Part shown: positions 13,244 to 35,028 of the stretch, piece by piece
Position numbering within the stretch: position 1 is the stretch's first letter
Layout: each line of letters starts with the position of its first letter
From: an uncultured beta proteobacterium
GTDB lineage: Bacteria > Pseudomonadota > Gammaproteobacteria > Burkholderiales > Rhodocyclaceae
DNA length: 37,102 nucleotides
Direction of reading: 5' to 3'
Assembly: GCA_903946745.1 (NCBI GenBank)
Contig: CAJAWW010000055.1
Coordinates: 1 to 37,102, forward strand
The notes under the pieces: model-generated
What the model saw: only the letters and a program-made list of their open reading frames with translations
What the model was told of the DNA's origin: nothing
Databases searched by the model: none
Made by a program: the position numbers and the translations under genes

Positions 13244-14290
13244 ATGGCAATCACCCTCGCGGTGGATTGCATGGGAGGCGATCACGGTCCGTCAGTGACG
13301 CTTCCCGCTATCTTCGAATTCCTCCGCCATGATCGGGATTGCGCCGCCATTCTGGTTGGGCGCGAGGGCGATCTGCGTTCGCACGTCGACGCGGTGGCGG
13401 CCGAGTTTGGTAGCCGGATTTCGCTGCACCATGCGTCCGAAGTGGTGGCGATGGATGAGCCCGTCGCCAGTGCACTGCGCAACAAGAAAGATTCTTCGAT
13501 GCGCGTGGCAGCCAATCTGGTGAAGGACGGGCAGGCCGATGCGGCCGTGTCCGCCGGCAATACCGGCGCATTGATGGCAATCTCCCGTTTTGTCCTGAAG
13601 ACGCTGCCGGGCATTGATCGCCCGGCGATTTGTTCTATCTTGCCTTCGCAACGCGGGGCGACCTATGTGCTCGATCTCGGTGCCAACGTCGACTGTACGC
13701 CCGAGCACCTGCTACAGTTCGGCATCATGGGCTCGTCGCTGGCTGCAGCACTGGAGCATATTGAGCGTCCGAGTGTCGGTTTGCTCAATATCGGCGAAGA
13801 AGATATCAAGGGCAACGAAGTCGTCAAGCGCGCTGCGGAGTTGCTGCGGGCGAGCGATCTGAACTTTGCCGGCAATGTGGAAGGAAACGATATTTTCAAG
13901 GGGACGGTGGATGTCGTGGTGTGCGACGGTTTCGTCGGCAATGTCACGCTCAAAGCTTCCGAGGGCTTGGCGCAGATGATTGGTGGCGCATTGAAGGCGG
14001 AGTTTTCGCGCAATGTGTTAACCAAACTGGCCGCGCTGGTGGCGATGCCGGTGTTGAAATCTTTCCGTCGGCGCTTTGATCCGCGCCGCTATAACGGTGC
14101 CAGTTTGCTGGGGTTGAAGGGGATCGTCGTCAAAAGTCACGGCTCTGCGGATCAGTTTGCGTTCCGTTGTGCGCTAGAGCGTGCCGCTGAAGCGGCGCGC
14201 CAGCGTGTGCCGGAAAAAATTGCGGCACGCATGGCGGCAGCCGGAGTCTTTACCGTTGCTTCAGCGTCGACTATTACGATTGGATCGTGA
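13244..14290 (+). CDS. plsX: Phosphate acyltransferase PlsX
   Basis: The 348-residue peripheral enzyme converts acyl-ACP and phosphate to acyl-phosphate, the acyl donor for PlsY in phospholipid synthesis. Family marks: [20 protein letters not shown] at the start, [39 protein letters not shown] and [16 protein letters not shown]. Length is normal. The stop overlaps the fabH start region (TGATG), giving translational coupling. A one-mismatch copy of the dispersed 14-mer lies at 14262-14275, close to the 3' end. Confidence 0.96.
14262..14275 (-). repeat. Dispersed 14-mer copy (one mismatch), in plsX
   Basis: Minus strand reads AATAGTCGACGCTG against the consensus AAAAGTCGACGCTG. It lies antisense in plsX, in a frame where GTCGAC is not read as Val-Asp (Ala-Ser-Thr-Ile instead). 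Confidence 0.7.
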
Positions 14291-15273
14291 TGAATAGCCA
14301 GGCAATGATCCACTCACGCATTACCGGTACCGGCAGTTACCTACCGGGCGATCCTGTAGGCAACGCCGAATTGATTGCCGCGCACGGGCTTGAGTCGTCC
14401 GATGAATGGGTGATCTCGCGCACCGGCATTCGCACACGTCACCTTGCGCCCACCGGCACGGCAGGTAGCGATCTGGCGCTGGAGGCGAGTCGTCGCGCCC
14501 TTGATATGGCCGGTCGTGCGCCGGCAGATGTCGATCTGATTATTGTTGCCACATCAACGCCGGACTATATTTTCCCCAGTACCGCTGCGCTGCTGCAATC
14601 CAAACTGGGTATCACCAATGGTGCGCCGGCTTTTGATGTTCAGGCGGTGTGCAGTGGTTTTGCCTATGCGCTGACCATTGCCGAAAAATTTATTCGTTCG
14701 GGGTCGCACAAATGCGCGTTGGTCGTGGGTGCCGAGGTCTTTTCGCGCATTCTTGACTGGCAGGATCGCGGTACCTGCGTGCTGTTCGGCGATGGCGCAG
14801 GCGCTGTGGTGCTGGAAGCGGCGAACGAGCCCGGCATATTGGCGAGTGCGCTGCATGCCGACGGCCGACATAACAACATTTTGTCCGTGCCCGGGCAACT
14901 GAATCGAGGTCAGGTGACAGGCGATCCGTTTTTGCGTATGGACGGGCAGGCGGTATTCAAGTTTGCGGTTAAGGTTTTGGCTGAAGTCGCGCATGAAGTG
15001 CTGGACGCGGCGGGTATGAGCGCAGCGCAGCTCGATTGGCTGGTTCCGCATCAGGCGAATGTCCGCATTTTGCAGGCGACGGCCAAAAAGCTCGGCTTGC
15101 CAGCAGAAAATTGTATCGTGACGGTTGAGCGTCACGGCAACACATCGGCCGCGTCGATTCCGCTGGCGCTGGATGAGGCCGTGCGCGACGGTCGCGTGCA
15201 GCGCGATCAACATTTGTTGCTGGAAGGCGTTGGTGGCGGGTTTACCTGGGGCGCGGTGCTCCTCAAGTTCTAG
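14290..15273 (+). CDS. fabH: Beta-ketoacyl-ACP synthase III
   Basis: The 327-residue enzyme condenses acetyl-CoA with malonyl-ACP to start fatty-acid synthesis. The Cys-His-Asn triad is visible in [16 protein letters not shown] and [10 protein letters not shown]. The N-terminal [13 protein letters not shown] and C-terminal [17 protein letters not shown] are canonical. The start is uncertain: ATG at 14290 overlaps the plsX stop, while ATG at 14305 would give the more usual [14 protein letters not shown] beginning; GTG at 14287 is a third option. It is followed by fabD after 10 bases. Confidence 0.95.
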
Positions 15274-15283
15274 AGGCGGAGTT

Positions 15284-16231
15284 ATGTCATTTGTTATGAA
15301 ATTTGCACTCGTTTTTCCGGGGCAGGGCTCGCAGTCAGTGGGCATGATGAATGCCTATGGCGATCATCCGGTCATCCGTACCTGCTTTGACGAAGCGTCG
15401 GCTGCGCTGGGGCGCGATCTCTGGCAACTGGCCTGCGACGGCCCGGCAGAGGCGCTCAATCAGACCGTGAATACGCAACCCCTGATGCTGACTGCCGGGG
15501 TCGCGGTTTATCGGCTCTGGCTCGCCAAGGGAGGCGTGCCGCCGGCAATGGTCGCGGGGCATAGTCTTGGCGAATATTCCGCGCTGGTGGCGGCCGGCGT
15601 GTTGCAACTCAAAGATGCGGTGCCGCTGGTTGAATTGCGCGCACAGGCCATGCAGGAAGCGGTGCCGGCGGGTGAGGGCGCGATGGCGGCGGTGCTGGGG
15701 CTCGATGCTGCGGCGGTGATCGCGGCGTGCGCCGAAGTGGCTGCGGGCGAGGTGGTACAGGCGGTGAATTTCAATGAACCCAAGCAGACGGTCATCGCGG
15801 GGCACAAGGCCGCAGTTGAACGTGCCGCCGAAGCGGTCAAGGCGCGCGGTGCCAAGCGTGCCCTGATGCTGCCGGTGTCGGCACCGTTTCATTGCAGCCT
15901 GATGCAACCCGCTGCACAGAAACTCAAGCAGCGTCTGCTGAGCGTCGACTTTTCGGTGCCACAGATTCCAGTCATCAACAACGTTGATGTGGCGCAATTG
16001 ACCGATCCTGTGGCAATCATGGATGCGCTGGTGCGGCAGGCGGCGGCACCCGTGCGTTGGGTTGAAATCATGCTGGCGATGCAGGCGGCGGGCGTGACAC
16101 AGGTGTTTGAATGTGGTCCGGGCAAGGTGCTTTCCGGCTTGGTCAAGCGTTGTGCCGAGGGTTTGACCGGCTCGGCCATGGCTGACCTCGCCGGTGTTGA
16201 TGCTGCGCTGGCGGCAAGCAGAGAGGTTTGA
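15284..16231 (+). CDS. fabD: Malonyl-CoA:ACP transacylase
   Basis: The 315-residue enzyme loads malonyl groups onto AcpP. Motifs: FPGQGSQSVGM near the N-terminus, the nucleophile serine in AGHSLGEYSALVAAG, and the catalytic histidine in PVSAPFHCSLM. The start at 15284 has GAGG seven bases upstream; ATG at 15296 is an alternative. FabG starts 2 bases after its stop's first base-pair neighbours (ATG at 16233), so the two are tightly linked. A near copy of the dispersed 14-mer lies at 15940-15953, encoding Leu-Ser-Val-Asp-Phe-Ser. Confidence 0.96.
   Translation: MSFVMKFALVFPGQGSQSVGMMNAYGDHPVIRTCFDEASAALGRDLWQLACDGPAEALNQTVNTQPLMLTAGVAVYRLWLAKGGVPPAMVAGHSLGEYSALVAAGVLQLKDAVPLVELRAQAMQEAVPAGEGAMAAVLGLDAAAVIAACAEVAAGEVVQAVNFNEPKQTVIAGHKAAVERAAEAVKARGAKRALMLPVSAPFHCSLMQPAAQKLKQRLLSVDFSVPQIPVINNVDVAQLTDPVAIMDALVRQAAAPVRWVEIMLAMQAAGVTQVFECGPGKVLSGLVKRCAEGLTGSAMADLAGVDAALAASREV
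15940..15953 (-). repeat. Dispersed 14-mer copy (one mismatch), in fabD
   Basis: Minus strand reads AAAAGTCGACGCTC; only the last base differs from AAAAGTCGACGCTG. The core 13-mer is exact. In fabD it encodes Ser-Val-Asp-Phe. Confidence 0.75.
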
Positions 16232-16232
16232 G

Positions 16233-16985
16233 ATGACGACTGACGTATTGAAGGGGCAGGTTGCTCTTGTCACGGGCGCTTCGCGCGGCATCGGCCGTGC
16301 CATCGCGCTGGAACTGGGCGCACAGGGTGCCACTGTGATCGGTACCGCAACTTCTGAAGCGGGCGCGGCAGATATTCAGGCAGCACTCGATGAGGCAGGT
16401 GTCGCGGGTTTGGGGGCATGCCTCAACGTGACCGATGCCGCCGCTTGTGATGAATTGCTGGGCGGAATTGAGAAAAAATTTGGTGCGGTATCGGTGCTGG
16501 TCAATAACGCCGGTATCACGCGCGATAATCTGGCCATGCGAATGAAGGATGACGAGTGGGATAGCGTCATCGATACCAATCTGAAAGCCGTGTTTTTTAT
16601 GTCGAAACGGGTCATGCGCGCCATGATGAAGGCGCGATTCGGTCGCATCATCAACATTACTTCGGTGGTGGGTGAAGCCGGCAATCCGGGGCAGGCCAAT
16701 TATGCGGCGGCCAAGGCCGGTGTGGCGGGCATGAGCCGTGCGCTGGCACAAGAATTGGGTAGCCGCAACATCACGGTAAATTGTGTCGCGCCCGGCTTCA
16801 TCGATACCGACATGACCAAGGCGTTGCCGGATGCGCAGCGCGATGCACTGTTGGGAAAAATACCGTTGGGTCGCCTCGGGCGCACGGAAGAAATTGCAGC
16901 GACGGTGGCTTTTTTGGCGTCGCCGCGTGCAGGCTACATCACCGGCAATACAATCAATGTCAATGGCGGGATGTATATGGCCTGA
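16233..16985 (+). CDS. fabG: 3-oxoacyl-ACP reductase
   Basis: The 250-residue short-chain dehydrogenase reduces 3-ketoacyl-ACP with NADPH. It has TGASRGIGRAIA (residues 14-25) for cofactor binding and VLVNNAGITRDNL. The catalytic Ser/Tyr/Lys lie in NITSVVGEAG and NYAAAKAGVAGMSRA, and the end NTINVNGGMYMA is canonical. The start at 16233 follows the fabD stop by one base. Its own stop codon (16983-16985) lies inside the first arm of a terminator-like hairpin before acpP. Confidence 0.96.
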   Translation: MTTDVLKGQVALVTGASRGIGRAIALELGAQGATVIGTATSEAGAADIQAALDEAGVAGLGACLNVTDAAACDELLGGIEKKFGAVSVLVNNAGITRDNLAMRMKDDEWDSVIDTNLKAVFFMSKRVMRAMMKARFGRIINITSVVGEAGNPGQANYAAAKAGVAGMSRALAQELGSRNITVNCVAPGFIDTDMTKALPDAQRDALLGKIPLGRLGRTEEIAATVAFLASPRAGYITGNTINVNGGMYMA

Positions 16986-17012
16986 TCTCTGTAGGGAGAT
17001 CAGGCAGTTTTT
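16981..17012 (+). terminator. Hairpin with T run between fabG and acpP
   Basis: CCTGATCTC (16981-16989) pairs perfectly with GAGATCAGG (16996-17004) across a six-base loop, followed by a T run at 17008-17012. The fabG stop codon TGA lies within the left arm, so a terminating ribosome would cover part of the hairpin. Likely a partial terminator or mRNA processing/stability element upstream of acpP. Confidence 0.75.
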
Positions 17013-17063
17013 GTTAAACTAAGCGGGTTTTACACACCCTGAATATCAGCGAAGGAGCGGTAC

Positions 17064-17303
17064 ATGGATAGCATCGAACAACGTGTCAAGAAAATCGTCG
17101 CCGAGCAACTCGGGGTCAACGAGGCCGATATCAAGAACGAGTCCTCGTTTGTGGATGATCTCGGTGCCGATTCACTCGACACCGTAGAACTGGTGATGGC
17201 GCTGGAAGAAGAGTTCGAGTGCGAGATTCCGGACGAAGATGCCGAGAAGATCACCAACGTGCAGCAGGCGATTGACTACGTCAACGCCAACGTCAAGAAG
17301 TAA
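17064..17303 (+). CDS. acpP: Acyl carrier protein
   Basis: The 79-residue acidic protein carries growing fatty acids on a phosphopantetheine at Ser37 in the DSL motif ([21 protein letters not shown] region). It is modified by AcpS, whose gene lies at 31319-31696. AAGGAG lies just upstream of the ATG, giving strong translation, and the fabG-acpP gap of 78 bases is the longest in the fab block. A dedicated promoter is expected there but I could not fix convincing boxes. Confidence 0.98.
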
Positions 17304-17323
17304 ATTTTTCTTCGGGAGTCATC

Positions 17324-18568
17324 GTGTCCATCGGATCCAAGCGCCGTGTAGTCGTTACCGGTCTCGGGCTCGTTTCGCCAGTTGGCAATACCGTCCCGGA
17401 AGCCTGGGCGAATTTGCTAGCGGGTCGTAGCGGGATCGGGCGCATCACGCACTTCGATCCATCAGCTTTCAAGGCGCAGATAGCCGGCCAGGTCAAGGAT
17501 TTCGACATTGGTATATATCTGTCGCCCAAAGAAGCCCGGCGCATGGACACGTTCATTCACTTCGGTCTTGCCGCAGGGATACAGGCGGTGCGCGATGCCG
17601 GCTTGGAAACTCCCGGCGACGATGCGGATCGAATCGGCGTGAATATCGGCTCGGGCATCGGCGGTTTGCCCTTGATCGAGAGCACGCACAACGACTACCT
17701 TGCCGGTGGGCCACGAAAGATTTCGCCGTTCTTCATCCCGGGCACGATCAGCAACATGATTTCGGGTAATTTGTCGATCATGTTTGGCATGAAGGGCCCG
17801 AACATCGCGGTGGTCACCGCGTGCACCACCGGCCTGCATGCCATCGGGCTTTCGGCGCGAATGATCGAATATGGCGATGCTGACGTGATGGTTTGCGGAG
17901 GCTCGGAGGCAACGATTTCGCCGCTGGCCATCGGTGGTTTTGCTTCGGCACAAGCGCTGTCTACCCGCAATGACGACCCTGCCACCGCCTCGCGTCCATG
18001 GGACAAGGGGCGCGACGGTTTCGTCATGGGCGAAGGCGCTGGCGTACTGGTGATTGAAGAATACGAACGCGCCAAAAAGCGCGGTGCAAAAATTTATGCC
18101 GAGTTGACCGGTTTTGGCATGAGCGGTGATGCCTATCACATGACGGCGCCGGACACCGACGGACCACGGCGCTCGATGGTTAATGCGCTGAAGAATGCCG
18201 GGCTCAACACCGATCAGGTGCAGTATCTCAACGCGCACGGCACCTCAACGCCGCTGGGCGACAAGAACGAGACCGAGGCGATCAAGCTGGCGTTTGGTGT
18301 GGATAACGCCAAAAAGCTGGTGGTGAATTCGACCAAGTCCATGACTGGCCATCTGCTCGGTGGAGCCGGTGGTCTGGAGTCGGTATTTACCGTGCTGGCG
18401 GTGCATCATCAGATTTCACCGCCGACCATCAATATCTTCGAACAGGATCCGGAGTGCGATCTTGACTACTGCGCGAATGTTGCGCGTGAGATGAAGATCG
18501 ACGCCGCCATGAAAAACAACTTCGGCTTCGGCGGTACCAACGGCACGCTGGTGTTTCGCCGCGTTTGA
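17324..18568 (+). CDS. fabF: Beta-ketoacyl-ACP synthase II
   Basis: The 414-residue condensing enzyme elongates acyl-ACP. The catalytic Cys is in AVVTACTTGLHAIG and the histidines are in LNAHGTSTPLGD and KSMTGHLLGGAGG; the N-terminus RRVVVTGLGLVSPVGN is typical. Start is GTG at 17324 with GGGAG upstream; no in-frame ATG gives the full conserved N-terminus. It follows acpP by 20 bases, the standard acpP-fabF pair. Confidence 0.97.
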   Translation: MSIGSKRRVVVTGLGLVSPVGNTVPEAWANLLAGRSGIGRITHFDPSAFKAQIAGQVKDFDIGIYLSPKEARRMDTFIHFGLAAGIQAVRDAGLETPGDDADRIGVNIGSGIGGLPLIESTHNDYLAGGPRKISPFFIPGTISNMISGNLSIMFGMKGPNIAVVTACTTGLHAIGLSARMIEYGDADVMVCGGSEATISPLAIGGFASAQALSTRNDDPATASRPWDKGRDGFVMGEGAGVLVIEEYERAKKRGAKIYAELTGFGMSGDAYHMTAPDTDGPRRSMVNALKNAGLNTDQVQYLNAHGTSTPLGDKNETEAIKLAFGVDNAKKLVVNSTKSMTGHLLGGAGGLESVFTVLAVHHQISPPTINIFEQDPECDLDYCANVAREMKIDAAMKNNFGFGGTNGTLVFRRV

Positions 18569-18599
18569 TTGAGCGATTGAGCGCGTGAGCGGGCGGGCA

Positions 18600-19016
18600 A
18601 TGCGTGCCGTCGCCCCGCAGCGGATTGGTGTACTGGCTTCACGCCAGTTGTTGCTGATCCAGTCGGTGGCGCATCTGGTGGCGGTCGTTGCGGTGTGGCT
18701 ATCAAATCTGCCTGCGCTGCTTTCCGCTACATTGATGTTAGTCATTGGCGCATCATTAGCCGTGCAGCGCCGGCCGCAATCGGTTATCGGGCTAATTCTT
18801 GGCGGTGATGGGGCGCTTGAAAAAGTCGACGCTGAGGGAACGGCAATCCGCGTGATGCTTGCCCCGCAGACGCTGGTACTGCCGTTTCTGGTGATTCTGC
18901 TGTGGCGTGAAGGCCGTCGTCACTGTTCGCTGCCAGTGATGCGCGACAGCATGAGCGCTGACGACTTTCATACCTTGCGGCTATGGCTGCGCTGGCAATC
19001 GACCGCTATTCCCTGA
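18600..19016 (+). CDS. YgfX-like small membrane protein
   Basis: A 138-residue protein with two hydrophobic segments (about residues 20-55) followed by a soluble C-terminal part containing LGGDGALEKVDAEG and LVILLWREGRRHCSL. The layout matches the YgfX/CptA-like family (DUF1434 type) found between fabF and nadB/rpoE in betaproteobacteria. In E. coli, YgfX is linked to SdhE and cytoskeletal proteins; no sdhE partner is adjacent, so that role is not assumed. ATG at 18600 has a purine-rich GGGCGGG upstream; GTG at 18585 is an alternative start. It is convergent with nadB, 12 bases apart. Confidence 0.72.
   Translation: MRAVAPQRIGVLASRQLLLIQSVAHLVAVVAVWLSNLPALLSATLMLVIGASLAVQRRPQSVIGLILGGDGALEKVDAEGTAIRVMLAPQTLVLPFLVILLWREGRRHCSLPVMRDSMSADDFHTLRLWLRWQSTAIP
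18821..18834 (+). repeat. Dispersed 14-mer copy (exact), in ygfX-like gene
   Basis: Exact AAAAGTCGACGCTG. It is read in the YgfX-like gene as Lys-Val-Asp-Ala. Confidence 0.85.
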
Positions 19017-19028
19017 CTTACTTCCTGA

Positions 19029-20636
19029 TTAACTGTTGCTGCGCGGTTGCAGGACAGTTTCCAGTGCGCGCGGTAGTGTGGCCGGGTAATCGCGGCTGTA
19101 GTGCAGCCCCCGGCTCTCCTGACGGCGTTGCGCGCTTTTGACAATAAGATGTGCGGTGAGCACCAGATTCCGAAGTTCGATCAGGTCGTTGCTGACGCGA
19201 AAGTTTTCGTAATATTCGTCGATTTCTTTTTCCAGCAAGCGGATGCGATGCAGTGCGCGCTCCAGTCGTTTGCTGGTGCGCACGATGCCGACATAATCCC
19301 ACATGAAGCGTCGCAGTTCGGCCCAGTTGTGCGAGATGACAATTTCCTCATCAGCATCGCGCACCCGGCTTTCATCCCATTGCGGCAGCGGTGGGATACT
19401 TTCGAGCGGTTGCGCCAGAATGTCGGCCGCAGCCGAGGCGGAAAATACCACGCATTCCAGCAGTGAATTGGAGGCCAGCCGGTTAGCACCATGCAGCCCG
19501 GTGAACGCCGTTTCGCCAACGGCATAGAGGCCGGGCAGGTCGGTGCGTGCTGCCAGGTCGGTGACAACGCCTCCGCAGGCATAGTGCGCGGCCGGCACCA
19601 CAGGGATGCCTTCGCGCGTGATGTCGATACCCAGCTCAATGCAGCGTGTGTAGATTGTTGGGAAGTGCTCGCGCAGGAAGGCTTCCGGCTTGTGTGTCAT
19701 ATCGAGAAACACGCAATCGACGCCGTGCCGCTTCATTTCGAAATCGATGGCGCGGGCAACGATGTCGCGCGGCGCAAGCTCTGCCCGTTCGTCATGATCG
19801 GGCATGAAGCGGGTGCCATCGGGGAGTCGCAGCAGGCCGCCTTCTCCACGCAGTGCTTCGGAAATTAGAAAGGATTTTGCGTGCGGGTGATACAGGCAAG
19901 TTGGGTGGAACTGGATGAATTCCATGTTTGCTACCCGGCATCCGGCTCGCCATGCCATGGCAATTCCGTCGCCGGTGGCGGTGTCGGGGTTGGTGGTGTA
20001 GAGATACACCTTTCCGGTGCCGCCGGTGGCCAGCACGGTATGGCTGGCGCCGATGGTGATGACGCTATCGTGGGCGACATCCAGCACATAAGCGCCGAGG
20101 CAGCGATTGTTGGGCAGGCCGAGTTTTGCGCCGCTGATTAAATCTACGGCGATATGGTGTTCCAGCACGGTGATATTCGGGTGTTGCAGGACTTGTTCGG
20201 TGAGCGTTTGCTGTACGGCTTCGCCGGTGGCGTCGGTGGCGTGAATGATGCGCCGATGGCTGTGTCCACCTTCACGCGTCAGATGAAACCCCAGCGGGCT
20301 GTTGTCTTTGGTGAAGGGTACGCCACGTTCAATGAGCCACTGGATGGCTTCGCGGCCGTGCTCGACGACGAAGCGCGTTGCGGCCGGATCGCACAGGCCG
20401 GCACCGGCGGTAAAGCTGTCACGGACATGCGCTTCAATGGAATCGGCCGGGTCAAGTACTGCGGCGATGCCACCTTGCGCCCAGGAAGAGGCAGAGTCGC
20501 CAAGCGATTTTTTGGTCACCAATGCAACCCGCCGGTTATCGGCGAGGCGCAGGGCAAGAGATTGGCCGGCCAAGCCGCTGCCGATCACGAGGACGTCATA
20601 TTGCCTCGTGGAGGCGTGGCCGGTCGTCGGATTCAT
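19029..20636 (-). CDS. nadB: L-aspartate oxidase
   Basis: The 535-residue flavoenzyme makes iminoaspartate, the first step of NAD synthesis from aspartate. FAD-binding [19 protein letters not shown] is at the N-terminus, then [16 protein letters not shown]. The active-site region has FHPTCLYHP and [15 protein letters not shown], and [16 protein letters not shown] follows; the C-terminal helical domain is complete. It acts with NadA (not in the window). Only one ATG fits, and it has no Shine-Dalgarno; a candidate extended -10 lies only nine bases upstream, suggesting leaderless translation. nadB divergent from rpoE is a conserved arrangement. Confidence 0.96.
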
Positions 20637-20644
20637 GGAGGGCG

Positions 20645-20653
20645 ACTATAACA
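20645..20653 (-). promoter_or_regulatory. Candidate extended -10 promoter of nadB
   Basis: The minus strand reads TGTTATAGT, an extended -10 (TG, one base, TATAGT; five of six matches). The predicted RNA start is about 20638, one or two bases before the nadB ATG at 20636. No clear -35 is seen. Confidence 0.5.
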
Positions 20654-20698
20654 TTGCCTGACATTGTTCGAATCCGTCTGAAATTTTGCATATTGCCG

Positions 20699-20726
20699 GG
20701 AACTTCATGTTGCCATCAGGGTCTTT
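20699..20726 (+). promoter_or_regulatory. Candidate sigma-E promoter upstream of rpoE
   Basis: GGAACTT (20699-20705), the full sigma-E -35 consensus, is followed after 16 bases by TCTTT (20722-20726), a partial match to the -10. It lies about 125 bases upstream of rpoE in the divergent gap (20637-20849). The gap also holds an eight-G run (20747-20754) and a lone TATACT at 20781-20786. RpoE autoregulation is known in related systems. Confidence 0.45.
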
Positions 20727-20849
20727 CTTTGCAGCAGTCATTGAATGGGGGGGGCGGGAAGTGATGAAGTGGCTTGTTGTTATACTCGCCGGCGGTTGGC
20801 ATGACAGCCAAACAGATCGCCAATTGCAGGACGATATACGCAAAAGCCC

Positions 20850-21449: not shown

Positions 21450-21493
21450 TGCGCGCGGGTAATGCACGCTGGGAAATGCAGAAAGACGAGATC

Positions 21494-22956: not shown

Positions 22957-23402
22957 GTCGTTGCGACGCTGTGGTGAAAGAAGTCGACGCTGATATGGCG
23001 CTGATTGAGTTGTCGGGTCGGCCGCACGCGTGCGGCAGTTGTGCGCGCGTGGATGGTTGCGGTAGTGGATTGCTGGGTCTGGGCACCGGGCCGCGCCGTT
23101 ACTGGCTGAAAAATTCGGTCGTTGCACATCCGGGTGATGTGGTCAGTGTTATGGTCACTGATGGCACGCTGTTGCGTACATCGCTGGTGGCCTATCTGTT
23201 GCCGGCATTGCTGGCAATCGCCGGGGCGGCGACGGGCGATGCACTGGGGGGGGATGCTGCTGCTCTTGCGGGGATGTTTGCCGGGCTCGTGACCGGTGTG
23301 TTGTGGTTGCGTTACACAGAATTGCGCACACGCGCCGGTAACAGTTTTTTTTCTTTGCAGCGTGAAACATCAACGACTCATTTGTACAAGGACGTGTCAT
23401 GA
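22953..23402 (+). CDS. rseC: SoxR-reducing system / RseC family protein
   Basis: The 149-residue inner-membrane protein has the RseC/MucC layout. A cysteine-rich cytoplasmic N-terminal part (ACGSCARVDGCGSG, a CxxC then Cys pattern) is followed by two transmembrane segments (about 73-95 and 100-117). RseC modulates the sigma-E response and, in E. coli, helps keep SoxR reduced. ATGA overlaps exist at both ends, with rseB and mucD. A one-mismatch 14-mer lies at 22979-22992, and an eight-G run at about 23246-23253 sits between the membrane segments. Confidence 0.92.
   Translation: MSRCDAVVKEVDADMALIELSGRPHACGSCARVDGCGSGLLGLGTGPRRYWLKNSVVAHPGDVVSVMVTDGTLLRTSLVAYLLPALLAIAGAATGDALGGDAAALAGMFAGLVTGVLWLRYTELRTRAGNSFFSLQRETSTTHLYKDVS
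22979..22992 (+). repeat. Dispersed 14-mer copy (one mismatch), in rseC
   Basis: Reads AGAAGTCGACGCTG against AAAAGTCGACGCTG. In rseC it encodes Glu-Val-Asp-Ala after a lysine codon. Confidence 0.75.
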
Positions 23403-25131: not shown

Positions 25132-25185
25132 AAGGTGCTCAATACGTTGCAATACGTTGCAATACGTTGACTGGGCACCTTTTTT
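25132..25185 (+). terminator. Terminator/attenuator hairpin upstream of lepA
   Basis: AAGGTGCTCA (25132-25141) pairs with TGGGCACCTT (25172-25181), ten pairs including one G-U, followed by TTTTTT (25180-25185). The 30-base loop consists of a triplicated decamer. The T run ends nine bases before the lepA ATG, so upstream transcription must read through it to make lepA mRNA. Confidence 0.8.
25141..25170 (+). repeat. Triplicated decamer in the lepA leader
   Basis: AATACGTTGC occurs twice in tandem and a third time as AATACGTTGA, filling the loop of the terminator-like hairpin. Copy number changes would alter loop size without touching the stem. Confidence 0.9.
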
Positions 25186-25194
25186 GTTGCACCG

Positions 25195-26988: not shown

Positions 26989-26996
26989 GGCTGGTC

Positions 26997-27785: not shown

Positions 27786-27795
27786 AGGGGGCAGC

Positions 27796-28155
27796 ATGAG
27801 ATTTCAGCGAGGCGTCAGTCTTAACGGACTCATGATTGGTAGCGTGATTTTTGCGGTGGTGGCTCTCGTTACCATGAAGGTGCTGCCAGAATGGATTGAA
27901 TTCGGCAAGATCACGAAGGCGGTGAAGTCGACCGCAAGTGATGCCAGTTTGAAAGATGCCTCCGTTGCACAGGTGAGAGCCAGTTACGAGAAGCGCCGGG
28001 ATATTGACGAGATCAAGAGCGTTTCTGCCAACGATATCGAGATCACCAAAGAAGGCGGCGAGTTGGTAATTTCATTCGCTTACACCAAGAAAGTTCCGTT
28101 GTTTTCTAACGTCAGTCTGGTTTTTGACTTTGAGGGCAGCAGCGCCAAGCAATGA
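27796..28155 (+). CDS. DUF4845 membrane protein
   Basis: The 119-residue protein has a pilin-like N-terminal membrane anchor (GVSLNGLMIGSVIFAVVALV, about residues 6-25) and a short periplasmic domain with IEITKEGGELVISFAYTKKVPLF. It is the DUF4845 family, nearly always between lepB and rnc in beta- and gammaproteobacteria; function unknown. GGGGG lies just upstream of the ATG. It overlaps rnc by ATGA. Confidence 0.9.
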   Translation: MRFQRGVSLNGLMIGSVIFAVVALVTMKVLPEWIEFGKITKAVKSTASDASLKDASVAQVRASYEKRRDIDEIKSVSANDIEITKEGGELVISFAYTKKVPLFSNVSLVFDFEGSSAKQ

Positions 28156-28820
28156 AAATGCAGCGCCTTGAAGCAGCGCTCGGGCACGGTTTTCACCGGC
28201 CGGAGTTGTTGAAACAGGCGCTGACCCATCGCAGTTTTGGCGCAGACAACTACGAACGCCTTGAGTTTCTCGGTGATTCTGTTCTCAATTGCGTTATTGC
28301 CGATCTGTTGTTCACCCGATTCCCGACACTCAAGGAAGGTGAATTGCATCTGCTGCGCGTGAGCCTGGTGCGACAGGAGGCGATTGCCGGGATCGCCCAG
28401 CAGCTCAATCTGGGTGAGGTCTTGCGGCTCGGTGAGGGTGAATTGAAAAGCGGTGGCTCCCGTCGGCCCTCGATATTGTCTGACGCGATCGAGGCAATCT
28501 TCGGCGCGATTTATCTGGATGCAGGTTTCGATGCCGCGCATGCCGTTATCGGAAGGTTATACGCGACAGCCATCGCGCGCATCGTGCCGACCGAAACCAT
28601 CAAGGATCCCAAGACCGCGTTGCAGGAAATTCTTCAGCGTCGCCGTCTGCCCGTGCCGCGTTACAGTTTGATCTGTACGCGCGGTGAAGCGCACAAGCAG
28701 GAGTTTGAAGTGGAGTGCATGATCGAAGGTTTAGATTTGCGTAGCACTGGAATCGGCACCAGTCGGCGCATTGCAGAACAACAGGCAGCCAGTCGGGCGA
28801 TGGCGGAAATCAAACCATGA
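28152..28820 (+). CDS. rnc: Ribonuclease III
   Basis: The 222-residue endonuclease cuts double-stranded RNA, including rRNA precursors. The signature YERLEFLGDSVLN holds catalytic acidic residues, and DAIEAIFGAIYLDAG the second metal-binding site. A dsRNA-binding domain fills about residues 150-222 (DPKTALQEILQRR to AEQQAASRAM). Overlaps of four bases with DUF4845 and era indicate coupled translation. RNase III autoregulation through a 5' hairpin is known in E. coli; I did not identify one here. Confidence 0.97.
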   Translation: MKMQRLEAALGHGFHRPELLKQALTHRSFGADNYERLEFLGDSVLNCVIADLLFTRFPTLKEGELHLLRVSLVRQEAIAGIAQQLNLGEVLRLGEGELKSGGSRRPSILSDAIEAIFGAIYLDAGFDAAHAVIGRLYATAIARIVPTETIKDPKTALQEILQRRRLPVPRYSLICTRGEAHKQEFEVECMIEGLDLRSTGIGTSRRIAEQQAASRAMAEIKP

Positions 28821-29728
28821 CGGACGTTGTGAGTGCTGCATTTCGCACCGGATACCTCGCGGTCATCGGGCGACCCAACGTTGGAAAGTCGACGCTGATG
28901 AATCGCCTCATCGGTGCCAAGGTGAGTATTACCTCCAAAAAAGCGCAGACCACGCGCCATCGCATTCATGGCGTGCTGACCAGTGAGTCGGCTCAGTTCG
29001 TGTTCGTCGATACACCGGGTTTTCAGACCACGCACAAAAATGCGCTGAATCGACTGATGAACCGCAGCGTCACCTCTGCGTTTTCCGATGTCGACGTCAT
29101 CCTGTTGGTGGTGGAAGCGGGGCGCTGGGGCAGTGGCGAAGATGATATCGTGCGCATGCTGCCGGCCGATACGCCGGTGGTGCTGGTCATCAACAAGATC
29201 GACCGGCTGACGAACAAGGCCGAACTGTTGCCCTTTATGGCCAAAGTTTCAGCCTTGTACGGATTCGCCGAACTGGTGCCGCTGTCTGCCGAAAAAGGGC
29301 ATGGAACGCAAGAGCTGTTGCCCATCGTCGCCCGTTACCTGCCCGAGGCACCGCCCGTATTTGATGCCGATGACATCACGGATCGTTCTGAGCGTTTTCT
29401 GGCCTCTGAAATATTGCGTGAAAAACTCTTTCGCAATCTGGGTGAAGAGTTGCCTTACGGCATCGCGGTTGAAATCGAGAAATTCGAGGTCGACACCACC
29501 GGCTCTAATCCCTTGCGGCGAATCCACGCGGCAGTCATTGTTGATCGGGATGCACACAAGGCCATCGTCATTGGCAAGGCCGGCGAGCGTCTGAAGCGCA
29601 TGTCTTCAGATGCACGCAAAGACATGGAAAATTTGTTTGGCGGCAAGGTCTGGCTGGAAACCTGGGTCAAGGTTCGCGGTGGCTGGGCAGATGACGAGCG
29701 CGCACTGAAGTCGCTGGGCTACGAGTAA
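28817..29728 (+). CDS. era: GTPase Era
   Basis: The 303-residue GTPase assists 16S rRNA maturation and 30S assembly. G1 is IGRPNVGKSTLMNRL, G3 is VDTPGFQT, G4 is INKIDRL, and the C-terminal KH domain has VIGKAGERLKRM. ATGA overlap with rnc. The P-loop codons GKSTL contain a one-mismatch copy of the dispersed 14-mer (28884-28897); here the protein sequence is fixed by function, so this copy may be coincidental. Confidence 0.97.
   Translation: MTDVVSAAFRTGYLAVIGRPNVGKSTLMNRLIGAKVSITSKKAQTTRHRIHGVLTSESAQFVFVDTPGFQTTHKNALNRLMNRSVTSAFSDVDVILLVVEAGRWGSGEDDIVRMLPADTPVVLVINKIDRLTNKAELLPFMAKVSALYGFAELVPLSAEKGHGTQELLPIVARYLPEAPPVFDADDITDRSERFLASEILREKLFRNLGEELPYGIAVEIEKFEVDTTGSNPLRRIHAAVIVDRDAHKAIVIGKAGERLKRMSSDARKDMENLFGGKVWLETWVKVRGGWADDERALKSLGYE
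28884..28897 (+). repeat. Dispersed 14-mer copy (one mismatch), in era
   Basis: Reads GAAAGTCGACGCTG. It falls in the era P-loop (Gly-Lys-Ser-Thr-Leu), in a different frame from the other copies, so it is the least convincing of the nine. Confidence 0.55.
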
Positions 29729-29740
29729 AGGGGTGAGCCC

Positions 29741-30460
29741 GTGAGCGGCAAGCAACGCATTGATGCCGAGCCGGCGTATGTTCTGCACCTGCATCCCTAC
29801 AGTGAAACGAGTCTGGTGGTGGATGTTTTTTCGCGCTGCCATGGACGTGTCCCGCTCTTGGCGCGCGGCGCGCGGCGCCCACGTTCGGCGATGCGCGGCA
29901 CGCTGATGGCATTTCAGCCGCTGGAGCTGGGCTGGTTTGGCAGCGGTGAAGTTAAAACGCTGGCCAAGGCGGAATGGATGGGCGGCGTGCCTTTGCTGAC
30001 AGGTCGCTGTCTGTTGCTGGGTTATTACCTGAATGAATTACTGATGAAAATGTTGCCGCGTGAAGACGCCCATCCGGCCTTGTACGATGCCTATGGGGAA
30101 GCGTTGATGGCCTTGGCGCAAGGCAGCGCGGATGCGCCGGAATTGCGTCGTTTTGAGAAGACGCTGCTGAAAGAGCTGGGCTACGGGCTGACGCTGGACG
30201 TGGACGCTGATTCGGGTGCTCCCATTGCGACGGAAGCACAGTATTGCTACTTGGTTGAACGTGGTCCGGTTGCAAAAGTCGACGCTGGGGATACGCCGAT
30301 GCTGTCCGGAAAAACCCTGCTCGACATGGCCGCCGACGATTACACCGACCCGCGCACGCGCCAGCAGAGCAAGCAGTTGATGCGTCAATTGATTGCCCAT
30401 CACATGGGCGGAAAGCCGCTACATTCGCGGCGAGTTTTCGTGGAGTTGCAGGAACTATGA
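29741..30460 (+). CDS. recO: DNA repair protein RecO
   Basis: The 239-residue protein anneals single strands and loads RecA with RecR. The N-terminal OB fold has AYVLHLHPYSETSLVVDVFSR and the conserved LARGARRPRS. The helical middle has GYYLNELLMKMLPREDAHPALYD and RRFEKTLLKELGYG. It starts with GTG at 29741 with AAAGGGG upstream. It carries an exact 14-mer (30274-30287). A three-hairpin noncoding element separates it from pdxJ. Confidence 0.94.
   Translation: MSGKQRIDAEPAYVLHLHPYSETSLVVDVFSRCHGRVPLLARGARRPRSAMRGTLMAFQPLELGWFGSGEVKTLAKAEWMGGVPLLTGRCLLLGYYLNELLMKMLPREDAHPALYDAYGEALMALAQGSADAPELRRFEKTLLKELGYGLTLDVDADSGAPIATEAQYCYLVERGPVAKVDAGDTPMLSGKTLLDMAADDYTDPRTRQQSKQLMRQLIAHHMGGKPLHSRRVFVELQEL
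30274..30287 (+). repeat. Dispersed 14-mer copy (exact), in recO
   Basis: Exact AAAAGTCGACGCTG, read in recO as Lys-Val-Asp-Ala. Confidence 0.85.
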
Positions 30461-30472
30461 CCATCCCCCCAT

Positions 30473-30554
30473 CCCCCTTCCCAAGGAAGGGGGTGACGCT
30501 TGTTCGCGGGCTGCGCCCGCTCCATGTTCGGGCGACCCCTCCTTGGGGCGGCCC
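30473..30554. repeat. Three-hairpin GC-rich intergenic element
   Basis: Between recO and pdxJ three stem-loops follow in a row. The first is CCCCCTTCC/GGAAGGGGG with loop CAA (30473-30493). The second is GCGGGC/GCCCGC (30506-30520). The third is GGGC+CCCC/GGGG+GCCC with a 2x2 internal mismatch (30530-30554). No T run follows any stem, so they are not simple terminators. The layout resembles palindromic extragenic repeat units; whether copies exist elsewhere in the genome cannot be seen here. Confidence 0.7.
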
Positions 30555-30566
30555 TGCGGAGGAATT

Positions 30567-31322
30567 ATGATCGAACTCGGTGTCAATATTGACCACGTTG
30601 CCACGGTGCGCGAGGCGCGTCGAGGTCATGAGCCTGATCCGGTGTGGGCTGCCGTGGAAGCGCATCTGGGGGGGGCTGACGGCATCACGGTGCATTTGCG
30701 CGAAGACCGCCGGCATATTCAGGACCGCGACGTGCGGCGTTTGCGAGAGCTCACGCACATTAAGCTGAATCTGGAAATGGCGGCCACCGACGAGATGGTC
30801 GGTATTGCTTGCGATATTCGTCCGGAAATGGCGATGCTGGTGCCCGAAGGCCGGCACGAAATCACCACCGAAGGCGGGCTGGATATTGTCGGGCAGGAAG
30901 CGCGTCTGCGCGATGTCGTTGCCCGGCTGGGCGAGGCGGGCATCGTCACCAGTGTATTCATTGATGCAGAGCTGCCGCAGGTCGAGGCCGCCAGTCGCAT
31001 CGGTGTGCGTGTGTGTGAAATCCACACAGGCCCTTATGCCCATGCTTTTCATGGTAAAGGGCGTGATGCCGAAAGCCCGGCTGTTCTGGATGAGCTGGCA
31101 AAAATACGCGTGGCCGGTGCTGCCATTTGTGCCGCCGGGATGCGCTTCAATGCCGGGCATGCACTGAACTATTTCAATGTGCAGCCGGTGGCGGCACTGC
31201 CGCGCATTCGCGAACTGCATATTGGTCACGCTATTGTCAGCCGTGCCGTGTTCGTCGGCATGCGCGAGGCGGTGCGCGAGATGAAGCGTCTGATGCGCGA
31301 AGCGGCGGCAGCAGCGCGGTGA
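30567..31322 (+). CDS. pdxJ: Pyridoxine 5'-phosphate synthase
   Basis: The 251-residue TIM-barrel enzyme condenses aminoacetone phosphate and deoxyxylulose phosphate to pyridoxine phosphate. Start ELGVNIDHVATVREARRG is canonical; LREDRRHIQDRD, LNLEMAATDEM, VPEGRHEITTEGGLD, EIHTGPYAHAF and NAGHALNY are active-site loops. GGAGGA (30558-30563) right after the third hairpin of the intergenic element is its Shine-Dalgarno. Its stop overlaps acpS by GTGA. Confidence 0.97.
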   Translation: MIELGVNIDHVATVREARRGHEPDPVWAAVEAHLGGADGITVHLREDRRHIQDRDVRRLRELTHIKLNLEMAATDEMVGIACDIRPEMAMLVPEGRHEITTEGGLDIVGQEARLRDVVARLGEAGIVTSVFIDAELPQVEAASRIGVRVCEIHTGPYAHAFHGKGRDAESPAVLDELAKIRVAGAAICAAGMRFNAGHALNYFNVQPVAALPRIRELHIGHAIVSRAVFVGMREAVREMKRLMREAAAAAR

Positions 31323-31696
31323 TTTTTGGAATTGGCACCGATATCGTTGCCGTGGCGCGCATGCGCGAGCTGTGGCAGCGGCACGGCGAGCGTGCGTTGG
31401 ATAAAATCCTGGCACCGGACGAGCGTGCGGCTTGCCTTGCCGCCACCGAGCCGGCGCGTTTCATGGCCAAGCGTTTTGCTGCCAAAGAGGCACTGGGCAA
31501 GGCGCTCGGTAGCGGCATGCGTGCGCCTGTTCTGCTGCCCGAGATCAGTGTGATACACGATGCGCTGGGTAAGCCGGATTTCACTTATGGGGCGGCACTG
31601 ACGGCGCATATGCAGCACAACGGGCTGACCGCCCGCCTTTCTATCAGCGACGAGCAGGAATACGCTGTCGCCTTCGTTGTGGTCGAATGCCCATGA
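31319..31696 (+). CDS. acpS: Holo-acyl-carrier-protein synthase
   Basis: The 125-residue enzyme transfers phosphopantetheine from CoA to AcpP Ser37. FGIGTDIVAVARM carries the magnesium-binding Asp and RFMAKRFAAKEALGKALG the Glu/Lys motif. The start is GTG at 31319 overlapping the pdxJ stop. The end AVAFVVVE is typical. nagZ begins at its stop (ATGA). Confidence 0.95.
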   Translation: MIFGIGTDIVAVARMRELWQRHGERALDKILAPDERAACLAATEPARFMAKRFAAKEALGKALGSGMRAPVLLPEISVIHDALGKPDFTYGAALTAHMQHNGLTARLSISDEQEYAVAFVVVECP

Positions 31697-32694
31697 ATAT
31701 GATGCCTTGCGGGCCGCTGATGGTCGACATCGCGGGTCTCGAACTCACTGCGCTTGATCGACAGCGACTTTGCCATCCGTTGGTCGGCGGTGTCATTCTG
31801 TTTGGTCGCAACTATTGCGATCGCGATCAATTGACGGCGCTGTGTGCATCGATCCATGATTTGCGTCACATTCTGATTGCGATCGATCACGAGGGCGGAC
31901 GCGTGCAACGCTGTCGCGAAGGTTTCACGCGGATTCCGGCGATGCGGCGTTTGGGGGCGTTGTGGGATAGCGACCCGGCCACCGCTTATACCGATGCGCA
32001 GTTGATTGGCTATGTGCTGGCGGCCGAGTTGCGTACCTGCGGCGTCGACTTTTCATTTACGCCGGTGCTCGACCTGGATTGGGGGCCGAGCGGGGTGATT
32101 GGAGACCGTGCTTTCCACCGCGATCCAACGATTGTGACGCAACTTGCAGGGGCTCTGATCGATGGTTTGCGCGCAGCCGGCATGGGTTGCTGCGGCAAAC
32201 ATTTTCCGGGCCATGGATGGGCTGCCGCAGATTCACATGTGGCGATGCCCGTGGATGAACGTAGTCTGGCCGACATGGCACCGGATCTGCTGCCGTATCG
32301 TCATCTGAAGCTGGATGCCGTGATGCCGGCGCATGTGATCTATCCGCAGGTTGATGCGCGCCCCGCCGGGTTCTCGCCCGTGTGGATCGGCAAGTTGCGG
32401 ACAGAATTTGGTTTGGACGGCGTGATCTTCAGCGACGATCTGTCGATGGAGGGTGCGAGTGTCGCGGGTGGTATTGTCGACCGTGCAAACGCCGCCTGGG
32501 CGGCGGGTTGCGACATGCTGCTGGTGTGTAATGCGCCGGATTCGGTAGCTGTTCTGCTCGATCAGTGGAACCCGCCCCCGGATCCGGTGCGGGCAGCCAG
32601 AGTTTCGCGTTTGTCGCCAAAGATGCCGGCACCAAGCCTCGAAAAAAATCCCGCCTATGAGGCGGGATTGGTGGCGATCAAAAAGCTCGCGTAA
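31693..32694 (+). CDS. nagZ: Beta-N-acetylhexosaminidase NagZ
   Basis: The 333-residue cytosolic GH3 enzyme removes GlcNAc from recycled muropeptides. Motifs: DHEGGRVQRCREGF, GKHFPGHG with the following DSH, and the nucleophile Asp in VIFSDDLSMEGA. ATG at 31693 overlaps the acpS stop (ATGA); an ATG at 31687 is possible. It carries a one-mismatch 14-mer (32040-32053). Its last codons (Asn-Pro-Ala-Tyr-Glu-Ala-Gly-Leu) are also the hairpin of the efp terminator on the other strand. Confidence 0.95.
   Translation: MNMMPCGPLMVDIAGLELTALDRQRLCHPLVGGVILFGRNYCDRDQLTALCASIHDLRHILIAIDHEGGRVQRCREGFTRIPAMRRLGALWDSDPATAYTDAQLIGYVLAAELRTCGVDFSFTPVLDLDWGPSGVIGDRAFHRDPTIVTQLAGALIDGLRAAGMGCCGKHFPGHGWAAADSHVAMPVDERSLADMAPDLLPYRHLKLDAVMPAHVIYPQVDARPAGFSPVWIGKLRTEFGLDGVIFSDDLSMEGASVAGGIVDRANAAWAAGCDMLLVCNAPDSVAVLLDQWNPPPDPVRAARVSRLSPKMPAPSLEKNPAYEAGLVAIKKLA
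32040..32053 (-). repeat. Dispersed 14-mer copy (one mismatch), in nagZ
   Basis: Minus strand reads AAAAGTCGACGCCG. In nagZ it encodes Gly-Val-Asp-Phe. Confidence 0.75.
32642..32669 (-). terminator. efp terminator inside the nagZ coding end
   Basis: On the minus strand AATCCCGCC and GGCGGGATT form a perfect nine-pair stem with a five-base loop, followed by a seven-T run (32642-32648). It lies 26 bases past the efp stop and wholly within nagZ codons. Confidence 0.88.
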
Positions 32695-32695
32695 T

Positions 32696-33253
32696 TTATT
32701 TGACGCGGTTTTTGTATTCGTTGGTGCGGGTATCGATTTCGATCTTGTCGCCAATTTCAACGAACAGCGGCACCGGCAGTTCCATTCCGGTACTGAGCTT
32801 GGCGGGTTTCATGACCTTGCCCGAAGTGTCGCCCTTGACGGCGGGTTCGGTGTAGATCACTTCGCGCACCACGCTGTTGGGCATCTCAACGGAAATGGCT
32901 TTGCCGTCATAGAACACCACTTCGACCGGCATGCCGTCTTCGAGATACTGGGTGGCGTCACCCATGTTTTCGCCTTCGACTTCGTACTGGTTGTACTCGG
33001 CATCCATGAAGACATACATCGGGTCGGCGAAGTAGGAATAGGTGCATTCCTTGCGCTCGGGCACGACTTGCTCGAATTTGTCGTCGGCCTTGTAGATGGC
33101 TTCTGAGGCGGCATCGGTGAGCAGATTCTTGAATTTGAATTTAACGACAGCAGAGCTGCGGCCGCCTTTGTTGTATTCGGCTTTCTGGACGACGAGCGGT
33201 TCGTTGCCGACCATGATGACGTTGCCAGCGCGGAGTTCCTGAGCGATTTTCAT
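32696..33253 (-). CDS. efp: Elongation factor P (Arg32 type)
   Basis: The 185-residue factor relieves ribosome stalling at polyproline. The tip loop NKGGRSSA places Arg32 where EarP-type EF-P is rhamnosylated (other types have Lys). The C-terminal [16 protein letters not shown] and [18 protein letters not shown] are canonical. AGGA lies nine bases before the ATG. earP is directly upstream on the same strand (50 bases), and convergent nagZ ends one base away. Confidence 0.97.
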
Positions 33254-33303
33254 GACATGCTTCCTGCGACGGAATTAGAAGAGTGGGAGAAATTGAAAAC
33301 CGT

Positions 33304-34368
33304 CTATTTTAGCCGCGCAAGACAAAACTGCACAAGGTTTGTCGCCAAATCTGTGTGGGCGGCGAGATGGTTTGTCCATATTTGCGTGTGTTGGCGCATG
33401 GCGGGCAGGGCGCTGGAGAATGCTGGCCAGTCGAGCGTTCCATCGCCGTTCCAGGCGTGCCAGAAAGCGGCCATCGTCCGTATGCTTAGCGTATGCCCAG
33501 CGTCGACTTTTCCAAAAGCGGCGATGAACGCATCCAGTTTTTGCAGGTGTAGGTTTTCTGTTTGCGGATAGATTTGCCATACCAATGGTTTCGCCGCCCA
33601 TTGTGCGCGGATGAAAGAGTCTTCGCCCCGGACGAAGTTGAGATCGCAGGTCCACAAAAGTTCGTCGTAGCGTTGCTGCGGTAAAAACGGCAGCGGCACG
33701 AGTTCCAGTCTGCCGATCTGCTGGCGTGGTTCGGTGCTACCGGGGCAGAGCACCTGTATCGGTGTGTCGGATCGCGCCCATGCGGCGAGCAGAGCGGGCA
33801 ATGCCGGGTTAACGTAACTGAAGAGCGAGATTGTCAGTGACGCAGGCGGTGGGTCGCCGAGCAAAAATTCTTGGCGAAATGCTTTTGCATTAAATACCCG
33901 GCGCCGTTTCTCGTAGTCGCGTTCCCGCAGAAGGCCACCGGTATTGCTGTCGAACCCCGGGAAAAAGAAATGCTTGGTCAGCGGCAAGCGCGGGTGGGGA
34001 GAGGGTAAGCCGTGGCATCCGCTGACCCAGTCTTCTGCCGAGAGATATTCGAGATTTAGCCACACCGGTTGCGTGGTGCGGCTTGCCATGGCAGCGACGT
34101 AGTTCGGTGGCAGTTCGCAGGCGAAGGTTTCGATGACGATGTCGGCGGGGGCTGTGTCGGCAAAAGATTTCTCCCAGCGGCGCACGTCCACACTGCTTCG
34201 CGGGGCGTCGGGTGCCAATCGGTATAGTGGTTGGGGGTCGTCGATCCATAGACGCACCTGCCAGCCGAAGTCATCCGCCAACTGCGATGCAAGTCGCCAA
34301 CAGACGGCGGCGTCGCCGAAGTTGTCGACCACGGTACAGAAAATGTCGCAGCGCAGTGAGGTGTTCAT
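33304..34368 (-). CDS. earP: EF-P arginine rhamnosyltransferase EarP
   Basis: The 354-residue enzyme uses dTDP-rhamnose to modify Arg32 of EF-P. It is of GT-B shape (formerly DUF2331). The N-terminal CDIFCTVVDNFGDAAVCWRLA holds conserved Asp15 and Asp19. The sugar-nucleotide motif FVRGEDSFIRAQWA has RGEDS at about 247-251, and PLVWQIYPQ follows. Start at 34368 gives MNTSLRCDIF; the longer in-frame upstream part overlaps the divergent glycosylase gene. It heads the earP-efp operon. An exact 14-mer lies at 33498-33511. Confidence 0.95.
   Translation of the reverse strand: MNTSLRCDIFCTVVDNFGDAAVCWRLASQLADDFGWQVRLWIDDPQPLYRLAPDAPRSSVDVRRWEKSFADTAPADIVIETFACELPPNYVAAMASRTTQPVWLNLEYLSAEDWVSGCHGLPSPHPRLPLTKHFFFPGFDSNTGGLLRERDYEKRRRVFNAKAFRQEFLLGDPPPASLTISLFSYVNPALPALLAAWARSDTPIQVLCPGSTEPRQQIGRLELVPLPFLPQQRYDELLWTCDLNFVRGEDSFIRAQWAAKPLVWQIYPQTENLHLQKLDAFIAAFGKVDAGHTLSIRTMAAFWHAWNGDGTLDWPAFSSALPAMRQHTQIWTNHLAAHTDLATNLVQFCLARLK
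33498..33511 (-). repeat. Dispersed 14-mer copy (exact), in earP
   Basis: Minus strand reads AAAAGTCGACGCTG exactly; in earP it is the sense strand and encodes Lys-Val-Asp-Ala. Confidence 0.85.
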
Positions 34369-34392
34369 GATGGCAGACGGTATCCTATCCGA

Positions 34393-35028
34393 ATGAATGG
34401 AATGATCGACTGCATTGACTGCACTTTGTGTCCGCGCCTGGCCGGTTTTTTGGCCGAAGTGCGCGCCACCCATCCGCATTATCACGGTCGTCCTGTATTG
34501 CCGTTTGGTGACCCGAAGGCGCGGCTCCTGATTGTCGGCCTAGCGCCCGGGATGCATGGTGCCAACCGCACCGGCCGGCCGTTTACCGGTGACTTTGCCG
34601 GAATTTTGCTGTATCAGGCCCTGCATGCGTTCGGGTTCGGTTCGCTGCCGGTTTCCGAGGCGGCCGACGATGCGCTGGTACTGACAGATTGCCGTATCAG
34701 CAATGCGGTCAAGTGCCTGCCGCCGGCGAACAAGCCCGAGACGGCCGAAATCCGCACCTGCAACCGTTATCTGTCGGCGGAACTCGCTGCGGCACCTGAA
34801 TTGCGGGTGATTCTGGCGCTGGGCCTGATTGCACACAAGGCGGTACTGATGGCCTTAAACCTCAAGCAATCTGCGTATACTTTTGGGCATGGGGCACGGC
34901 ATCAACTTCCCGATGGCCGGGTACTGGTTGATAGTTATCATTGCAGCCGCTACAACACGCAGACGCACCGTCTCACCAGCGTCGACTTTTACAATGTCTT
35001 CCGCACCATTCGATCCGAACTTGACTGA
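34393..35028 (+). CDS. Uracil-DNA glycosylase family protein (family 5, UDGb-like)
   Basis: The 211-residue enzyme should remove uracil or other deaminated bases from DNA. Cysteines for a 4Fe-4S cluster are seen in CIDCTLCPRL, AVKCLPPANKPE and RTCNRYL. Motif A is GLAPGMHGANRTGRPFTGD, as in UDGb. The second active-site motif reads YHCSRYNTQT, whereas HPS is usual, so a proline is replaced by cysteine. No Shine-Dalgarno precedes the ATG. It overlaps the uvrC start by 35 bases and carries an exact 14-mer at 34977-34990. Confidence 0.9.
   Translation: MNGMIDCIDCTLCPRLAGFLAEVRATHPHYHGRPVLPFGDPKARLLIVGLAPGMHGANRTGRPFTGDFAGILLYQALHAFGFGSLPVSEAADDALVLTDCRISNAVKCLPPANKPETAEIRTCNRYLSAELAAAPELRVILALGLIAHKAVLMALNLKQSAYTFGHGARHQLPDGRVLVDSYHCSRYNTQTHRLTSVDFYNVFRTIRSELD
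34977..34990 (-). repeat. Dispersed 14-mer copy (exact), at the udg/uvrC junction
   Basis: Minus strand reads AAAAGTCGACGCTG exactly. It is read in the glycosylase gene as Ser-Val-Asp-Phe and ends three bases before the uvrC ATG, in the place of a ribosome-binding site. Confidence 0.85.

Follow-up and report, generated by a model that had tools for sequence, protein, structure and literature searches.

DNA discrimination by short genomic tags is described in the recent literature as limited to the Neisseriaceae and the Pasteurellaceae (PMC12616744; PMC7811141; PMC5031613). In the Neisseriaceae, the DNA uptake sequence (DUS) is a 12-mer of the ATGCCGTCTGAA dialect series; its receptor is the minor pilin ComP. 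In the Pasteurellaceae, the uptake signal sequence (USS) is built from a AAGTGCGGT or ACAAGCGGT core and AT-tracts, and its predicted receptor is PpdA/ComN (PMC12616744). A bias in how they are placed relative to the reading frame is published for both DUS and USS (PMC2346458). Here, we analyze a dispersed DNA word found in a stretch of 37,102 nucleotides (hereafter the window) from an uncultured beta proteobacterium of the Rhodocyclaceae (contig CAJAWW010000055.1 of assembly GCA_903946745.1). The original prediction, made from the letters of the window, had noticed nine scattered copies of a 14-mer and proposed a species-specific uptake or recognition signal. It suggested counting the word genome-wide against a Markov model and a shuffled-codon control, mapping its strand and replichore bias, comparing sister genomes and looking for a ComP-like minor pilin. 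Our literature search found the 14-mer in no paper and yielded no relevant report on uptake sequences of this group.

The 14-mer makes up the left portion of a 25-bp site, AAAAGTCGACGCTGgnganACGGY, which is bipartite and has sharp boundaries. This site lies outside the DUS and USS sequence series but behaves like both. As with the DUS, there are hundreds of scattered copies on both strands, with a frame bias and with dialects that differ between genera and supplant one another across whole genomes, in Betaproteobacteria that have type IV pili. It differs from the DUS in being a 25-bp bipartite element and not a 12-mer, and in its sequence; both length and sequence place it outside the DUS dialect series. 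Most positive genomes carry 130-650 copies, and the dialects differ in the middle of the site and keep both ends. The GACGGC of the right half is also present in the reverse complement of the AT-DUS TTCAGACGGCAT, which may be due to chance. The USS resembles the site in being an extended, multi-part element of more than two helical turns that starts with an A-run and occupies preferred frames in genes. However, the core of the site is unrelated to either USS core, its consensus differs, its right half is the GC-rich ACGGC and its lineage is unrelated. HIP1 of cyanobacteria, a highly iterated 8-bp palindrome scattered through genes in thousands of copies, is likewise an iterated word within genes, but the site is asymmetric and 25 bp long. 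Three traits of the uptake-signal class are present: a genome-wide excess, occurrence in both orientations with a frame bias, and presence of the word or its dialects in related lineages.

Sites of the window, genome-wide excess and structure

A pattern search of the window recovers nine sites. Four match the 14-mer exactly and five have one mismatch; five are on the minus strand and four on the plus strand. Positions, strands and mismatch counts are all as originally reported, and each of the nine copies does fall in a gene of its own (plsX, fabD, an unnamed ORF, an rseC-like gene, era, recO, nagZ, earP and a gene of the uracil-DNA-glycosylase (UDG) family). When two mismatches are tolerated, shuffled sequence is expected to give 0.31 matches, and nine were never obtained in a shuffle. 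Over their full length, the sites are as follows.

14251..14275, minus strand: uptake-like site AATAGTCGACGCTGAAGCAACGG.., antisense in plsX; one mismatch to the 23-bp frame
15929..15953, minus strand: uptake-like site AAAAGTCGACGCTCAGCAGACGC.., antisense in fabD; two mismatches
18821..18845, plus strand: uptake-like site AAAAGTCGACGCTGAGGGAACGG.., in an unnamed 143-aa ORF; perfect, no mismatch
22979..23003, plus strand: weak uptake-like site AGAAGTCGACGCTGATATGGCGC.., in the rseC-like gene; three mismatches over the full frame
28884..28908, plus strand: weak site GAAAGTCGACGCTGATGAATCGC.., in era, over the GKSTL P-loop codons; three mismatches over the full frame
30274..30298, plus strand: uptake-like site AAAAGTCGACGCTGGGGATACGC.., in recO; encodes KVDAGDT; orthologous sites in relatives
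32029..32053, minus strand: uptake-like site AAAAGTCGACGCCGCAGGTACGC.., antisense over the conserved TCGVDFSF codons of nagZ; two mismatches
33487..33511, minus strand: uptake-like site AAAAGTCGACGCTGGGCATACGC.., in earP, sense; encodes KVDAGHT; one mismatch
34966..34990, minus strand: uptake-like site AAAAGTCGACGCTGGTGAGACGG.., antisense near the 3' end of the UDG-family gene; perfect, no mismatch

The era site (28884) may be coincidental. The first 14 kb of the window are empty, as had been noted. This is unremarkable because the genome-wide density is only about one site per 6 kb.

The window is contig 55 of a genome of 2,825,442 bases in 332 contigs, hereafter the source genome. The exact 14-mer occurs there 175 times (94 forward, 81 reverse), and the reversed word used as a control does not occur. 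When up to two mismatches are allowed over the 17 fixed bases of the site, 384 sites are found, versus 2 for the reversed control. Detailed statistics were drawn from 377-729 kb of the source genome. A 377 kb sample contains 33 exact 14-mers where Markov models of orders 1 to 5 predict 0.004-0.03, a huge excess. In a 729 kb sample, synonymous-codon shuffling of all predicted genes removes the signal, leaving 0-1 of the 47 exact copies located in coding sequences. Markov models and codon shuffling together rule out an artefact of codon usage or composition.

The second conserved block, ACGGY, is located at +19 to +23. It is near-invariant even among sites picked by their first 14 bases alone (A 89%, C 100%, G 100%, then mostly G, from +19 to +22). 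The edges of conservation are abrupt, with none before +0 and none after about +25. The consensus of 124 sites is AAAAGTCGACGCTGgnganACGGc and its total information amounts to 34 bits, whereas about 13.6 bits would be sufficient to single out that many sites in the source genome. Counts of sites with 0, 1, 2, 3 and 4 mismatches are 41, 40, 22, 11 and 6, versus 0, 0, 0, 0 and 16 for the reversed control. We infer that this excess information and this mismatch spectrum are the trace of a self-spreading word. The 14-mer of the original prediction was correct as the left part of a longer site; the right-hand block of the motif, its spread through a wider clade and its dialects had been missed.

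Most of the sites in the source-genome sample are singletons. Among 116 sites, 90 are genic, with 48 in sense and 42 in antisense orientation. A preferred frame, with codons AAA GTC GAC GCT GGN GAN ACG, accounts for 34 of the 48 sense sites. The other 26 sites are intergenic though intergenic DNA represents 7.5% of the sequence, an enrichment of about 3-fold (p 4e-7); gene calls came from our own rough caller, corrected for earP, and the exact intergenic share is approximate. This placement bears out the description of the word as scattered in ordinary genes in both orientations. Sites such as the antisense one over nagZ TCGVDFSF arose by substitution, without insertion. No strand or macrodomain pattern was found in two closed genomes of relatives, where the low site numbers (32 and 23) give low power (Kolmogorov-Smirnov (KS) p 0.11 and 0.16; Rayleigh p 0.23 and 0.44). 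Their strand splits are 14/18 and 9/14, with no division by chromosome half, and the 94/81 split of the source genome shows no skew either. Pairs of DUS or USS often form terminators. In one relative (G016:C162:5055-5091), two sites overlap head to head and form a perfect terminator-like hairpin with a T-run and an energy of -30.9 kcal/mol.

Distribution in the Rhodocyclales, dialects and recO

We surveyed 200 genomes of the same family, allowing up to two mismatches; reversed controls gave 0-3 matches. Six other genera (g2, g9, g20, g63, g70 and g88) include members with about 130-650 copies, as compared with 384 in the source genome. Nearly all remaining genera of the family have 0-8 copies, and a few are intermediate, with 9-21. 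Assigned by named relatives, the positives are Sulfuritalea, Rugosibacter and further Rhodocyclaceae/Rhodocyclales. Loci are empty in Accumulibacter, Propionivibrio, Methyloversatilis, Gallionellaceae, Oxalobacteraceae, Nitrosomonadaceae and Polynucleobacter, as judged from named relatives and a NagZ tree.

A sister dialect, AAAAGTCGGCGCTGGCGnnACGGC, is found in species of six related genera, Sulfuritalea and Rugosibacter among them. The source genome has an A at +8 (GTCGAC) where the sister genera have a G (GTCGGC). Further genus-level differences concern the first base, +15 to +18 and +24 to +26. In about 50 other families of the order, the sister word occurs in 1-5 copies or not at all. Scanning the k-mers of a genome without matches (G010), placed near Azonexus by its NagZ, revealed a third dialect, AAAAGTCAGTcccngcnggACGGCG. 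It has the same two ends and the same 12-bp spacing as the other dialects but a different middle. This dialect is also found in a metagenome-assembled genome (MAG) named Azonexus (L109) and in two neighbours (L081 and L082). In ten further site-less genera, a search of 40 kb each did not find this frame. An apparent excess of AAAAGTC in a genome of the Accumulibacter group (G018:C1) was set aside, being a REP-like inverted repeat with GGAAAAGTCATGACCG that is different from the site. The counts against both controls, the strand balance and the sister-genome comparison support the idea of an uptake signal but not the term "species-specific", as the word is clade-wide with dialects.

In recO, the site at 30274 falls within a loop whose sequence is hypervariable in Betaproteobacteria. 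The spellings at this orthologous position are AAAAGTCGACGCTGGGGATACGCC in the source genome, AAAGTCGGCGCTGGCGACACGGCG in a Sulfuritalea genome (L055) and AAAAGTCGGCGCTGGTGATACGSCG in two Rugosibacter genomes (L056 and L057). The position is common and the spelling is that of each genome (GAC in the source genome, GGC in the others). Site-less relatives have unrelated codons there. The recO site follows each genome's dialect.

In genomes of other families (G233:C3:26360-30943, L440; G280:C34, L442; G375:C5, L443), the Sulfuritalea-type consensus occurs 4-5 times, with some copies grouped within a few kb; a CzcB-like efflux gene contains one copy and a replication-protein-like gene another. This DNA was probably received from site-bearing bacteria. 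At least 120 IMG/VR viral stretches contain the exact consensus; these are likely proviruses or host flanks of the clade. Two other iterated words are probably CRISPR repeat arrays: CACGGGGAACACGG-like words, about 10 times in the source-genome sample, and AAACCACGGGGGAAACC, 7-8 times in a 100 kb sample of G106:C1.

Uptake machinery and competing explanations

We propose, with a probability of roughly 0.7, that the sites represent a new kind of uptake-signal sequence, 25 bp long and bipartite, read by a type IV pilus competence receptor. This reading rests on the excess over controls, the equal use of both strands, the dialects, the way recO follows them, the 34 versus 13.6 bits and the presence of pilus and ComEC genes. 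The source genome encodes PilT, PilU, a PilB-type ATPase, PilQ and ComEC. Beside these ordinary type IV pilus genes, genes resembling those for MSHA-type pilus biogenesis (MshE/G/A, MshL, MshM and MshN) were recognized, by eye only, in the source genome (C24, C252 and C275; L386, L388 and L389). A search for PilY1 in this genome gave no match, but the family used also matched no control, which makes the result uninformative. In the proposed mechanism, a DNA receptor at the cell surface, probably one of the minor pilins, would bind AAAAGTC, the 12-bp dialect-specific middle and ACGGC, together two helical turns. Cells would preferentially import tag-bearing DNA. Tagged alleles would then recombine over untagged ones, and the tag would accumulate where it is tolerated, in preferred frames of genes and in intergenic gaps. 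A shift in receptor preference would move the whole genome to a new dialect. The function as an uptake signal is deduced from sequence.

Several observations weigh against this proposal. We found no report of natural transformation in the clade, and a 25-bp site is longer than the DUS or the USS core. ComEC, present in 39 of 39 genomes tried, is universal in the family and does not discriminate. The ComP_DUS family (Pfam PF16732) was found in 45 of 47 relatives, with or without sites, and not in the source assembly; it was rejected as a marker of the trait since it occurs in both site-bearing and site-less genomes. Only 2 prepilins are present in the source assembly versus 10-21 in relatives. 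The ComP-like minor pilin that had been suggested was not found in the source assembly, and none could be tied to the motif. No receptor candidate emerged when the pilins of site-bearing genomes were clustered on similarity and net charge. No paired sites of the terminator type occur in the source-genome sample. The minor-pilin cluster perhaps fell into an assembly gap of the source genome, or it may have been lost.

The best rival is a clade-specific nucleoid or chromosome-organising protein that would bind the 150-650 dispersed copies, in the manner of matS/MatP, SBS/SlmA or Noc. The long, bipartite, two-turn site resembles a protein-binding site, and the source assembly keeps its sites without recognisable minor pilins. 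Known matS, SBS, Noc and KOPS sites, also dispersed protein-binding words, are macrodomain-confined or strand-skewed, whereas our site is neither in the genomes tested; the lack of macrodomain confinement, exclusion or strand pattern comes from two closed genomes with low power (32 and 23 sites). The respelling of hundreds of sites in sister genera, including the orthologous recO, would be hard to obtain without drive, and 34 bits far exceed the 13.6 bits needed. Overall, we consider a nucleoid protein unlikely. An intracellular recombination or repair signal, Chi-like or related to DNA processing after uptake and distinct from a surface tag, would also be dispersed on both strands with dialects, and biased conversion could spread such a function too. 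However, Chi and KOPS are short and strand-skewed along replichores, and our site is long and unskewed, which leaves this explanation improbable.

A small mobile repeat of the REP/MITE type, copying itself into genes, would explain many near-identical copies and a 12-bp middle that varies by lineage. Yet similarity ends sharply on both sides, the flanks are flat with no flanking inverted repeats, and copies are mostly singletons. Sites overlay conserved codons without insertion, as in nagZ TCGVDFSF. Flat flanks and sites built from conserved codons all but exclude an insertion element, and we give a mobile repeat very little credit. Finally, an effect of codon usage or of a repeated peptide, the sense frame reading KVDAGDT, could account for the frame common to 34 of 48 sense sites. 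It is hardly credible in view of the 42 antisense sites among 90 genic ones, the 26 intergenic sites among 116 and the 0-1 copies of 47 left by codon shuffling.

A candidate third lineage with sequence-specific uptake

On the most far-reaching reading, which we consider probable, the Rhodocyclales would be a third lineage in which DNA uptake is sequence-specific, represented by a Sulfuritalea/Rugosibacter group and by an Azonexus-like one. Its 25-bp self-tag would have conserved ends that anchor the predicted receptor and a 12-bp middle that sets the dialect. The reader would have to touch both AAAAGTC and ACGGC, which are separated by about two turns, and its contacts with the middle would have to differ between Azonexus-like and Sulfuritalea-like genomes, which gives a handle to search for it. 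The tag could be used as a marker of DNA that has moved from these bacteria to other families, and the IMG/VR stretches could reveal whether phages avoid or copy it. The tag-bearing clade consists of environmental bacteria, some of them cultured. If the proposal is true, a third lineage with frame-sharing dialects would provide an independent natural experiment on the origin, spread and switching of such tags.

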